A stretch of DNA of 64,000 bases from the NCBI RefSeq assembly GCF_000710775.1, contig NZ_JOJP01000001.1:3576583-3640582 (forward strand), given 5' to 3'. This DNA is from Endozoicomonas elysicola. Lineage in GTDB: Bacteria; Pseudomonadota; Gammaproteobacteria; Pseudomonadales; Endozoicomonadaceae. The notes beneath the pieces are model-generated. The model was not told the DNA's origin. It did no database searches and saw nothing but the letters and a program-made list of their open reading frames with translations. This document shows positions 36,988-40,618 of the stretch, in pieces. How positions within the stretch are numbered: position 1 is the first letter of the stretch; each line of letters begins with the position of its first letter. Both the position numbers and the translations under genes were made by a program.

Positions 36988-37131
36988 TATACCCAAAGGA
37001 TTTCAAGTTGCTACGCGGCGGCAAGTAAGCAAAGCCCCTTGAGCCTACAAATAGTAGGTGATCGGACTGAGCTGGCGTTCCAGTAAACGAATGCAGCCAA
37101 CAAAGTAGCTATTTGCAAGGCAACGGGTATA
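36988..37131. repeat. ERIC-like intergenic palindromic element
   Basis: The 144-bp stretch begins TATACCC and ends GGGTATA. It carries, in order, TTTCAAGTTGC, GCGGCAAGTAAGC, CCTACAAATAGTAGG at the centre, and GCAGCCAACAAAGTAGC near the right end. These match in order and spacing the parts I recall of ERIC/IRU elements (CAAGTTGC ... GCAGCCAACA ... GGGTAT). It is longer than the usual 127 bp, so it may contain an internal insertion. It lies between glnD and corA and has no coding potential. Confidence 0.65.
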
Positions 37132-37256
37132 TGGCAATCTACCCATGACTCTGTGTCATCAGGTATTTAGCGTTTTATGGTCTGGATGATCCGACAATCC
37201 AGTGACTGGTGCTCAGCACCCCTCTCAAAGCTGTTTACCAATAAAAGGCAGTAACC

Positions 37257-38210
37257 ATGATCTATGCCTATAGTGCTCAGGAAAACCAATTTTCCATTGA
37301 CCGGGTTACCCCAGATTTCCCTCCGGCCAAGGGCACTATATGGTTAGAAGCCACTGAACCGGATAGTGACGAACACCACTGGTTGACTACGCACTTTCCC
37401 GGATGCCTGCCTGAAGAAGAGGACCTGGGTGAAATTGAGATATCATCACGCTACTTTGAGACAGAAAGCGGTATTCATATCCGCTCACTGTTTCCGCATC
37501 GTGCCGGTCACGATCTGAGAAACATTAACGTTGCCTTCAACCTGAGATCCGACAAACTCATCACCCTGCAGGATGAGCCCACAGGCCTGTTCAGGCTGAT
37601 GCGTAAACATTTGAAAACACAGCATGTTAAAGCCGCCACACCACTGGATGTTCTCATCGCACTGTTTGATGCCAAGGTTGAATATCTGGCGGATACCCTG
37701 GAAGAAGTATACGAAGACCTGGAAGAGGTCAGCCAGAATGCACTTTCAGAACAGTATAAGGATGTTAATGAACAGCTACGAACCATCACACTTCAGGAAG
37801 ACCTGAATGGCAAAGTAAGGCTGAATCTGCTGGATACGCAGCGCTCTCTCCGTTACCTGATGCGTTCATGCAACCATATGCTGAACGATGAACAGCGGGA
37901 CAATATTCGGGATATGCTCCGGGATATTGAATCCCTGACACCGCATACCGGCTTTATATTTGAGAAAATCAACTTCCTGATGGAATCGACCATGGGTTAT
38001 ATCAATCTTGAGCAGAACAATATCATCAAGATTTTCTCGGTTGCCGCTGTGATGTTTCTGCCTCCAACATTGATAGCCAGTATTTACGGAATGAACTTTA
38101 AAACCATGCCAGAGCTTTCCGTTGAGTACGGCTACCCTCTTGCCCTGGGGCTTATGCTGCTAAGCGCACTGGCAACGTTTCTTTTCTTCAAACGAAAAGG
38201 CTGGCTGTAG
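37257..38210 (+). CDS. corA: Magnesium/cobalt transporter CorA
   Basis: CorA is the pentameric Mg2+ (and Co2+, Ni2+) channel of the inner membrane. The 317-residue protein matches E. coli CorA in length and along the whole chain. There is an N-terminal cytoplasmic funnel (FDVWLE-like IWLEATEPDSDE, EIEISSRYFETESGIHI), a long stalk helix (about 130-235), the first membrane helix IIKIFSVAAVMFLPPTLIAS, the selectivity motif GMN at 278-280 in YGMNFKTMPEL, and a second membrane helix ending FFKRKGWL. The stop codon is one base from the left arm of the multi-hairpin element at 38212. Confidence 0.95.
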   Translation: MIYAYSAQENQFSIDRVTPDFPPAKGTIWLEATEPDSDEHHWLTTHFPGCLPEEEDLGEIEISSRYFETESGIHIRSLFPHRAGHDLRNINVAFNLRSDKLITLQDEPTGLFRLMRKHLKTQHVKAATPLDVLIALFDAKVEYLADTLEEVYEDLEEVSQNALSEQYKDVNEQLRTITLQEDLNGKVRLNLLDTQRSLRYLMRSCNHMLNDEQRDNIRDMLRDIESLTPHTGFIFEKINFLMESTMGYINLEQNNIIKIFSVAAVMFLPPTLIASIYGMNFKTMPELSVEYGYPLALGLMLLSALATFLFFKRKGWL

Positions 38211-38211
38211 C

Positions 38212-38474
38212 TAGGGGGCGTTATCAACTGGACATACAACCAGCCACCCATTATTTGTACCAGACAAGGCGCGAGCTGTGTAGTGTGGTTGCTCCACATG
38301 AGCAGTGAGCAACGCAGCATGGTGCAAATAATGGGTGGCCCTTTGGGTTGGCCATACAAGCACTCATGCCGTGTTGAACGTCTTGAACAGGGAACCACCA
38401 TGTCCTGCGCCGTTCACCTTGCCTGAGTGCTTGTATGGCCAACTGGTTGAATGGCCAGTTGGTAACGCCCCCTA
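38212..38474. repeat. 263-bp MITE-like element with outer inverted repeats and two inner hairpins
   Basis: The outer arms are 32 bp (38212-38243 and 38443-38474), inverted, matching at 29 positions and starting TAGGGGGCGTTA. Inside are two independent hairpins: a 20-bp inverted repeat matching at 19 positions (38243-38262 with 38320-38339), which has its own inner 7-bp stem (38288-38294 with 38307-38313), and a perfect 20-bp inverted repeat (38347-38366 with 38424-38443). Together they predict a three-way-junction or cloverleaf fold in single-stranded DNA or RNA. There is no gene. It sits directly after corA and 84 bp before the YbaK-like start. An open frame from 38435 is only the right arm read through. 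Confidence 0.9.
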
Positions 38475-38557
38475 ATGAAATATTAGCCTCTGTTATCAGC
38501 CATCAGGGGCTATACTCTTCTCACCTCAAGCCAAGATTCACTGGGGTGATTCCTATC

Positions 38558-39046
38558 ATGAGCATTCCCAACACAGTCCATAATTATCTCTCTGAACAGA
38601 AGATTCCCTATCACACGATCAGACACCAACCCAGCAAAAGTTCAGTCCAGAGTGCCATTGCTGCGCAGATCCCACTCCACCAGCTGGCCAAAGCTGTTGT
38701 CCTGAAAGACAATCAGGATCACTACCTGATGGCCATTTTACCTGCCGCAAACCGGGTCAATATTCACCAGGTGAGTCAAATCACCAATTCAAGGCTTCAA
38801 CTTGCAACCGAGCATGAGCTTAACTGCACATTCAAGGACTGTGAACCCGGTGCCATTCCTCCTCTCGGCCAGCCCTATCATATGAATATGCTCTTTGATA
38901 ACCGGATTTGCCATAATCCGGATATCTATCTGGAAGCCGGTGACCACGAAACATTGATCCATTTATTACAGAGTAGTTTTCAACAGCTTATCGACGGCCA
39001 GCCTCATGATGACCTCTGCTCAGCCCCACCAAAAAACATGAAATAA
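38558..39046 (+). CDS. YbaK/EbsC-domain aminoacyl-tRNA deacylase-like protein
   Basis: Members of this family hydrolyse mischarged tRNAs (YbaK, ProXp). The frame is open from 38435, but the first 41 codons come from the repeat element; the ATG at 38558 gives 162 residues. IPYHTIRHQ is the beginning of the fold, LAKAVVLKDNQDHYLMAILPA carries the conserved Lys of the active site, and FKDCEPGAIPPLGQPY is the conserved Gly-Pro loop. It is a single-domain protein, not the editing insert of ProRS. The particular tRNA substrate cannot be told from sequence. Confidence 0.85.
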   Translation: MSIPNTVHNYLSEQKIPYHTIRHQPSKSSVQSAIAAQIPLHQLAKAVVLKDNQDHYLMAILPAANRVNIHQVSQITNSRLQLATEHELNCTFKDCEPGAIPPLGQPYHMNMLFDNRICHNPDIYLEAGDHETLIHLLQSSFQQLIDGQPHDDLCSAPPKNMK

Positions 39047-39286
39047 CCACCGATGATCTCCTGCCTCGTTTATAACCCGGTGTCTATATTAATGTCAGGG
39101 TGCCATTCGACTGAGTGAATCCCTGAGGTCCGTAAGGCTTCTTAACTACCACTTTCACAGATAGCGTCCATACTGATATCAGATAGTTCGCTCTCGAACG
39201 AACCCGTCACCAGAAGGGCTATTCCACTTAAAAAGGAGCAGATCCCGGTAAAACATCCAATAATCGGGGATCCTGAAGCTGAGAAT

Positions 39287-40618
39287 ATGAATCAGAGACT
39301 GAGTTTACAGAATATTGTTGGTATGGGGTTTATGGTATTCGCCATGTTTCTCGGTGCAGGGAATCTGATTTTTCCCCCTATGGTAGGACAGCTGGCTGGG
39401 GAGGACATGTGGTATGCTGCCGCGGGCTTTTTGATAACCGGGGTTGGCCTGCCATTATTGGGTATTGTTGCCATCTCCAGAGTGGGAGGCGGGTTTAATG
39501 AGATCAGTGGGGAAATGCCCAGACCGTTGATCATTGCCCTTGGAACCTGCATTTACCTTATTATTGGGCCATTATACGCAGTACCCAGAACAGCCCTGGT
39601 GTCCTATGAAGTTGGACTTACACCTTTTCTACCCGAATCCAGCGAGTTTACACAGCTTATATTCAGCCTGATTTTCTTTAGCATCTCCTGGTATCTATCT
39701 ATTCGTCCAGGCAAACTTCTTGAATCGGTAGGAAAGCTGATTACACCGGCTCTTATTGCCCTGCTGGTAATCCTTGGCCTTTCTCCCATCATATCACCGC
39801 TTGGCGTACCCGGTAATGCCATGGGAACCTATACCGAAACCCCGTTTATCAAGGGCTTTCTGGAAGGGTATATGACCATGGATGCTCTGGCGGCATTGAT
39901 GTTTGGTATTGTTATTATTACCAACCTCAAATCCCATGGCATTAAAGAAAAGGCTAGCCTGTTTCATTACAGCATCACCACCGGGGTAATTGCAGCCATT
40001 GGTCTGGCCTTGGTTTACCTGTCTCTATTCTACCTGGGAGCAACCAGCCGGGAAGTAGCTCCAGATCCCGGCAACGGCGGACAAATTCTGACCACCTATG
40101 CCGAAACACTGTTTGGCACGACCGGTATCGCCTTGCTGGCAGCCGTTGTAACCCTGGCTTGCCTTACAACTGCAATTGGCTGTATTACTGCCGCCAGTGA
40201 ATACTTTGACGAGATGTTTGAAAAAATAAGTTATCGATCAATCGTTACCATCATCAGTATTGTCTGTGTTTTCTTTGCCAATATGGGATTGAATGAGATC
40301 ATTGACCTTTTCATTCCTGTACTGCTGATTCTATACCCGATATCCATTGGATTAATCTTTCTGGGCCTGATCAGAGACTGGTTACCAAACCCGGTTTTAA
40401 CCTACCGAGCGACGCTAGCGACCACCTTTTTTCTTAGCATCATTGATCTACTGAGAATTAAAGATTACGCAGGACTACAGCCAATCCTGCAACCTTTCAG
40501 CCTTATTCCCGGCTATGAAGATCACATGATTTGGCTACTGCCTTCAATTGCTATATTATTAATCACAATCTTCCTCGGCTTTGCCATCAAGCCAGCATCG
40601 AATTGTGAGATGCCATAA
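39287..40618 (+). CDS. brnQ: Branched-chain amino acid transport carrier BrnQ
   Basis: BrnQ (LIVCS family) is a cation-coupled uptake system for Leu, Ile and Val. The 443-residue protein has about twelve membrane segments and the family signatures MVFAMFLGAGNLIFPPMVGQLAG near the N-terminus (quoted here in part), YLIIGPLYAVPRTALVSYEVG, and EGYMTMDALAALMFGIVI. It is a single gene with a 240-bp upstream gap and a strong hairpin 26 bases downstream. Confidence 0.95.
   Translation: MNQRLSLQNIVGMGFMVFAMFLGAGNLIFPPMVGQLAGEDMWYAAAGFLITGVGLPLLGIVAISRVGGGFNEISGEMPRPLIIALGTCIYLIIGPLYAVPRTALVSYEVGLTPFLPESSEFTQLIFSLIFFSISWYLSIRPGKLLESVGKLITPALIALLVILGLSPIISPLGVPGNAMGTYTETPFIKGFLEGYMTMDALAALMFGIVIITNLKSHGIKEKASLFHYSITTGVIAAIGLALVYLSLFYLGATSREVAPDPGNGGQILTTYAETLFGTTGIALLAAVVTLACLTTAIGCITAASEYFDEMFEKISYRSIVTIISIVCVFFANMGLNEIIDLFIPVLLILYPISIGLIFLGLIRDWLPNPVLTYRATLATTFFLSIIDLLRIKDYAGLQPILQPFSLIPGYEDHMIWLLPSIAILLITIFLGFAIKPASNCEMP

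Follow-up and report, generated by a model that had tools for sequence, protein, structure and literature searches.

The 263-bp element that follows corA in the window (the whole 64,000-nucleotide stretch of Endozoicomonas elysicola DNA analysed here) is best explained as a MITE of the IS5 family, probably IS427, whose body consists of two homologous lobes that lie head to head and would act single-stranded, most likely as RNA. We give this reading a probability of roughly 0.72. Its resemblance to MITEs and to IS5-type elements is of an already known kind; what is new is the inverted pair of lobes, shared widely and conserved in shape. As in other MITEs, a short length (263 bp) and 32-nt arms are combined with the lack of a transposase gene, dispersed copies, a TA duplication and an insertion sequence (IS) with matching ends. 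The features of the locus are listed below.

37257-38210, + strand: corA gene (PF01544), context outside the element, directly upstream.
38212-38243 and 38443-38474: outer arms, 32 nt, 29/32 complementary (91%).
38212-38243, + strand: left outer arm and terminal inverted repeat, TAGGGGGCGTTATCAACTGG..., with similar ends in other full copies.
38443-38474, - strand: right outer arm and terminal inverted repeat, TAGGGGGCGTTACCAACTGG..., from the sequence and the arm pairing.
38212-38213: left TA, one half of the putative target-site duplication, judged from empty sites at other copies and TA ends in 25/28 copies.
38473-38474: right TA, the second half, on the same basis.
38240-38342, + strand: lobe 1, core-forward (model R2 match, 92.3 bits, E 1.3e-22).
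38243-38262, + strand: lobe 1 stem, 5′ arm, 20 nt, 95% paired with 38320-38339, with compensatory changes.
38320-38339, + strand: lobe 1 stem, 3′ arm, 20 nt, 95% complementary to the 5′ arm.
38339-38347: dyad centre, CCCTTTGGG here and CCCTTCGGG in the consensus of the family, from the sequence and the folds.
38344-38446, - strand: lobe 2, homologous to lobe 1, core-forward (model R2 match, 98.0 bits, E 3.7e-24).
38347-38369, + strand: lobe 2 stem, one arm, 23 nt, 96% complementary to 38421-38443.
38421-38443, + strand: lobe 2 stem, other arm, 23 nt, 96%.
38558-39046, + strand: downstream gene with an aminoacyl-tRNA editing domain (PF04073), context, its start picked at an internal ATG.

The first-pass annotation of this DNA, made from the letters alone, had described outer inverted arms of 32 bp with 29 matched positions and two inner inverted repeats of 20 bp. 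Re-measurement returned the same outer arms and the same first inner repeat; the second is longer, at 23 nt. A cloverleaf-like fold had also been predicted, and the minimum-energy fold of 38212-38474 is a cloverleaf: the outer stem encloses lobe 1 and lobe 2, with a small hairpin at CCCTTTGGG between them. Its energy lies far below that of shuffled sequences both as RNA (-154.8 kcal/mol, z -12.0) and as DNA (-89.5 kcal/mol, z -13.6), with 0/200 shuffles as good in either case. Inner pairing is present in both lobes of the predicted fold, and not in one repeat alone as originally described. The element starts, as annotated, one base after the corA stop codon (38208-38210). The absence of a gene inside it also stands: inspection of the ORFs revealed only mechanical ones overlapping the 263 bp, with no credible gene within it. 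The - strand has two, 89 and 63 aa long, and a further ORF of 203 aa begins in the right arm and includes the downstream gene. No promoter- or terminator-like sites were found in 38000-38700, and an Rfam search of 37000-39600 up to E 1 gave one match, outside the element.

The element is repeated in its own genome (G000; 5.61 Mb, two contigs), where BLAST returned 43 matches, including ten near-full copies (261 or more of the 263 positions, identity 73-100%). In a set of 43 loci examined, ORFs of at least 100 aa lie on both sides at 37 (convergent at 12, co-directional at 20 and divergent at 5), and mechanical ORFs span the element at three. A search of 56 genomes, the own genome and relatives, gave matches in seven, G000 itself, G004, G008, G011, G012, G018 and G022, while the lobe-1 core pattern recovered six named stretches, two from uncultured Endozoicomonas sp., one each from E. 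ascidiicola and E. cretensis, and two from Oceanospirillales bacterium XeTr1. Searching with the whole element L001 gave three plasmid records and no phage match; the whole element L208 had no plasmid match, and viral contigs searched with one pattern gave none. Shortened copies that retain a single lobe or a piece of one were also seen (L009, L022, L177-L179).

Mobility was examined by joining the flanks of 13 own-genome copies and searching the genus with them. The sites of L007 and L008 are cleanly empty in G008, with 99% identity over the joined flanks and a single TA in place of the two that border the filled site, although at L007 one of the two filled-site TAs is altered. The site of L029, a mini copy, fits a single TA in G008 with changes nearby, whereas that of L004 is element-free with CG in place of the expected TA. 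Sites of L005, L010 and L002 resemble decayed remnants in G008, and the L022 site is occupied in both genomes. The G008 junctions of L003, L006 and L009 were left unaligned, and L016 aligned to G007 alone. At the L013 locus the G008 site is occupied by the outer arms without lobes, so the lobes were either lost there or gained in the own genome. The first-pass annotation had proposed looking for an empty site downstream of corA in relatives; such sites were found at other copies, but the corA site in G008 (L045) is occupied by an element that lacks lobe 2. TA is present at both ends in 25/28 copies, preceded by Y in 27/28 and followed by R in 28/28, a Y-TA-R target for which the name YTAR is used. 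Judged from these alignments, the element is mobile and non-autonomous, as had been suggested, and duplicates TA on insertion.

Arms-only palindromes of about 47-57 bp (L029, L173 and L174) were seen on contig C1 of G000 at 64811-64867, 1542183-1542230 and 5126722-5126768; they are possibly deletion products, or themselves mobile.

IS5-type elements with matching ends occur in a relative as well as in other genera. When the end of L227, a related element from Halomonas, was searched against plasmids, 30 records matched, one of them its source record; an IS5 family transposase is annotated under the match in seven, and several of the remaining records look like chance. Identity was 21/21 bases in Halomonas sp. 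A020, whose IS5 end thus matches the end of a sister family, 20/21 in Azotobacter and Aeromonas, and 17/17 in Paracoccus. Three of these IS5 elements were read. Their ends are TA-GGGCCTGTTGACG ... CAACAGGCCC-TA or nearly so, and each encodes a transposase of 249 aa; the one in L230 is 861 bp long. DUF4096 and DDE_Tnp_1 domains were present in the two transposases scanned (Halomonas and Aeromonas elements). Locus L255 of G008 holds an IS5-type gene, assigned by 36-41% matches to the Halomonas protein, with the right end TAGGGGGCGTTCTCAATTAT two bases past the transposase match. This end has 19/20 bases of the family consensus end GTTCTCAATTAG; the left end, CTAGGGGTGCTCTTAATTAA, is diverged, and 836 bp separate the two. 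L259 is a second copy of this IS (91% identity over 818 bases), and an IS5-type element in G011 has the ends GGGGGCGTCACCATCTAACC. No IS was found with exactly the ends that the window copy has (GTTATCAACTGG and GTTACCAACTGG); the match is to the consensus GTTCTCAATTAG.

In L255, L259 and L235 the match to the Halomonas protein breaks in two at residues 100-102, and an A6C run marks each junction. Some members of the IS427 group have two overlapping ORFs with a frameshift motif, according to the available text of PMC3281130; the split seen here may reflect such frameshifting or else decay. Of the IS5/IS427 rows available from the same source, 10/11 show a 2-bp duplication, and every element measures 832-865 bp. 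The present family resembles this group in its TA duplication, Y-TA-R target and matching ends, and in having partners, 836-861 bp long, that carry an IS5-type transposase; it differs in that the element has no transposase and carries a conserved two-lobe body that is absent from the IS copies read. On these sequence likenesses the element may be called an IS5-type MITE, probably of the IS427 group, and its movement by an IS5-type transposase appears well supported.

The Halomonas IS5 protein had matches in 6/9 genomes tested, many of them weak or broken. Its matches in the own genome are three fragments only, with no intact partner transposase, and there were none in G012 and G022 (38 and 36 lobe matches) or in G037. 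The own genome has three DDE_Tnp_1 (PF01609) matches, each broken by in-frame stops and none with family-like ends nearby within the stretches examined. An IS630/Tc1 partner was rejected because DDE_3 (PF13358) has no match in the own genome. Scans by eye found no pair of ends 0.6-4 kb apart in the own genome (G000), G003, G007, G008, G011, G012, G022 or G037; an end at C381 of G008 is present among the scan matches. No transposase was recognised by eye among the longer ORFs of 12 stretches beside single ends (L160-L171), nor in 20 such stretches of G037 (L180-L199, including three short contig ends), and plasmid searches with the L208 and L006 ends gave no match. One of the DDE_Tnp_1 matches with an in-frame stop lies in the window itself (1438-1923, - strand), its protein weakly similar to IS5 proteins (21.9% identity over 137 residues).

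The two lobes are copies of one unit. An alignment of lobe 1 (+ strand) with lobe 2 (- strand) spans 103 columns and needed no extra ones; 24 columns are invariant across 27 sequences (alignment A3, with 27 of 52 remaining stretches; L012, L016 and L050 left out), so the element is a head-to-head pair. A first covariance model of the lobe had matches in 13/37 genomes at E 0.01, including families with other ends and stems. A second, built from 34 lobes, matched 80/293 genomes of the order and 46/118 genera at E 1e-4; the other 213 genomes had no lobe match at this threshold, where the stricter filters used mean that weak matches may be missed. Lobe matches were also obtained on one Halomonas and two Pseudoalteromonas replicons. 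Of 40 loci scanned, with 69 lobes between them, 29 carry both lobes, always head to head, and the gap between paired lobes is one base in 25, two in three and five in one. The two lobes of one element were sister tips in none of these 29 in a lobe-core tree without support values, which makes the pair look old. Element ends differ widely among the genera read. Bacterial MITEs are often seen as decayed insertion sequences with an unimportant inside. Here selection seems to act on the cargo, since the inside is conserved in shape across so many genera and the ends that were read differ.

In many genera the two hairpin lobes retain their shape while their letters change. Among 69 distinct lobes 96.4% of cells pair and two-sided changes occur at 32/33 pairs, with a covariation score of 1.059 against 0.216 for shuffled and at most 0.164 for slid controls, in an alignment that leans towards structure because it was fitted to the model. 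In the full element, aligned with MAFFT and not structure-fitted (29 sequences), 38/95 consensus pairs show two-sided compensatory change. This and the 43 BLAST matches contrast with the single copy and lack of arm covariation that the first-pass annotation had named as the outcome against its proposal. The facing AAGGCG and CAACGC stretches are strongly conserved. Taken from the alignments, this pattern suggests that the folded lobe shape itself does something.

On one strand of each lobe, mismatches in the stems are more often G-T than A-C. They were counted with the lobes read core-forward, once the arms had been aligned with the same penalty for every kind of mismatch, and amount to 58 G-T and 14 A-C in the 69 lobes; taken by themselves, the 29 partner lobes give 31 and 8. 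The excess is weak in the family found by BLAST (12 G-T vs 8 A-C in lobe 1, 6 vs 1 in lobe 2). Column counts on the + strand of alignment A2, which holds a shifted L012 and the flipped L016 (the latter excluded from the mismatch counts), gave 19 G-T vs 9 A-C for the lobe 1 stem and 2 vs 10 for the lobe 2 stem, in agreement with a core-forward preference because lobe 2 reads forward on the other strand; the outer stem gave 10 vs 4. The inner part of lobe 2 gave 58 vs 8, opposite to the proposed preference. As its pairing came from + strand folding, which favours G-U, this count gets little weight, yet it lends no support. A strand-wide mutation bias should cancel within the element, since the lobes face opposite ways. 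Equal numbers of G-T and A-C are predicted by a double-stranded cruciform or by DNA correction, and we infer that the lobe works single-stranded. The G-T excess is support for this and not proof, because the lobes have common ancestry and a G-U-favouring model found most of them.

We also considered a plain selfish MITE, in which only the ends matter and the symmetry arises from template switching and quasi-palindrome correction and not from lobe function. Hairpin events at the DNA level do happen: L016 and L006, otherwise near-identical, carry the loop segment of lobe 2 in opposite orientations, so a lobe can flip, and the L013 locus in G008 records a clean loss or gain of lobes at one site. 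The lack of lobes inside the IS5 elements read (L230-L232, nothing better than E 0.13) would also suit this explanation; across six further loci, one lobe was found, 175 bp outside the IS in L235. Correction should, however, perfect the lobe, and its AAGGCG / CAACGC internal loop is conserved in an imperfect state. The equality of G-T and A-C that such a process predicts is likewise at odds with the count in the 69 lobes, but far less so with the BLAST-found set. We regard the selfish reading as unlikely, though worth keeping in view.

Alternatively, the lobes could be sites for a dedicated protein on single-stranded DNA or a cruciform, as in REP/RAYT and attC/integrase, and serve replication or transposition. 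The conserved letters inside a covarying stem would suit a protein site. G-T is the better tolerated mismatch in DNA, so the single-strand preference fits single-stranded DNA as well, whereas a double-stranded cruciform should give no preference at all. Movement is already accounted for by the IS5-type ends and the TA duplication, and the IS5 elements read contain no lobe; we consider this explanation improbable. That the element is a fixed cis-regulatory RNA of corA is largely refuted and very improbable: its place one base past the corA stop is shared with G008, but other copies sit between other genes, some of their sites are empty in G008, and lobe 2 is absent from the corA site there.

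Returning to the preferred reading of an IS5-family MITE with single-stranded lobes, an IS5-type transposase would bind the GGGGGCG... ends in trans and move the element, whose body is formed by the two homologous hairpin lobes facing each other about the CCCTTCGGG centre. Each lobe would then act as a single-stranded nucleic acid, most likely RNA, as the covariation and the mismatches suggest. Because the lobes face each other, a transcript entering from either side would carry exactly one lobe in working orientation. At the corA locus, lobe 1 would lie within the 3′ end of the corA mRNA and could protect or process that end, or bind a protein. The first candidate roles, by analogy with folded MITE transcripts as described in the available text of PMC2229807 and PMC10969869, may thus be mRNA 3′-end stability or processing, or protein binding. 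The first-pass annotation had left the choice between 'MITE-like or structured RNA'. Both descriptions apply and are not alternatives, since the MITE body looks selected for structure; the role at the 3′ end of the corA mRNA is one that we infer.

A more tentative extension, to which we give less than even odds, is that the inverted lobe pair makes up an orientation-independent mobile RNA module, of which any read-through transcript would present one lobe. The element ends would then be exchangeable, so the module could be spread by whichever IS5-type transposase is present. If true, it would be a mobile 3′-UTR part that bacteria gain through transposition. The conservation of the lobe makes a direct test possible of whether lobe binding, or the stabilising or processing of transcripts, is the cause of its persistence. 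A function of the lobe would likewise account for many palindromic repeats of the order that lack annotation.

We found no description of such a two-lobed element in the open-licence papers that were searched. Correia/NEMIS, ERIC and RUP elements are similarly short, mostly intergenic and mostly TA-ended, with stable folded transcripts, and the units are below 200 bp in the available text of a review of small bacterial MITEs (PMC2229807). The present element differs in its 263 bp, two homologous lobes and a covarying core found in many genera, with Correia/NEMIS and RUP compared by description. A relation to ERIC is not supported, as none of 26 matches of model R2 (up to E 10, filters off) fell in the one E. 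coli ERIC locus searched (L233).

The 262-bp, Tn3-derived TIMEs of Pseudomonas are close in their near-equal and conserved length, lack of an ORF and stable fold, but have 38-bp Tn3 ends and 5-6 bp duplications (PMC4133298, in the part available). Positions 1-50000 of plasmid QKH54 hold two 262-bp TIME-like elements; model R2 had no match there up to E 10, and a relation to TIMEs is not supported. REP/BIME hairpins occur in alternating orientation, as the lobes do here. With their RAYT transposases they form a known class (see PMC2817692), from which the present element differs in its lobes of about 103 bases and its TA-duplicating ends. QMITE1 and QMITE2 of Coxiella burnetii, likewise gammaproteobacterial MITEs, have very stable folded transcripts, some of them reportedly small RNAs; the accessible portion of PMC5896051 reports no orthologues of QMITE1 in other genomes and gives 7-9 bp duplications for QMITE2, which is set apart here by description.

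An Rfam search of 20 loci up to E 1 gave six matches, of which one overlaps a lobe (mir-301 in L205, 25.2 bits against a gathering threshold of 56); thus neither Rfam search identified a family that fits the element. Adjoining a lobe element, L208:1775-1882 matches the Mn2+ riboswitch at 32.8 bits, below its gathering threshold of 45.

G000 also contains an apparent second palindromic repeat family (L056 and L057); its stems are distinct, and its AAGGCG / CAACGC core resembles that of the lobes. Some lobes carry a 17-base palindromic insert of the type ATACCC-NNN-GGGCATAA within the conserved GGCAA/GGCG motif (lobe 2 of L005, L033 and L037; L013, L020, L021 and others). The insert is shared with L056 and L057, and its pattern occurs at 16 places in G000 with at most three mismatches, compared with none for the reversed control.
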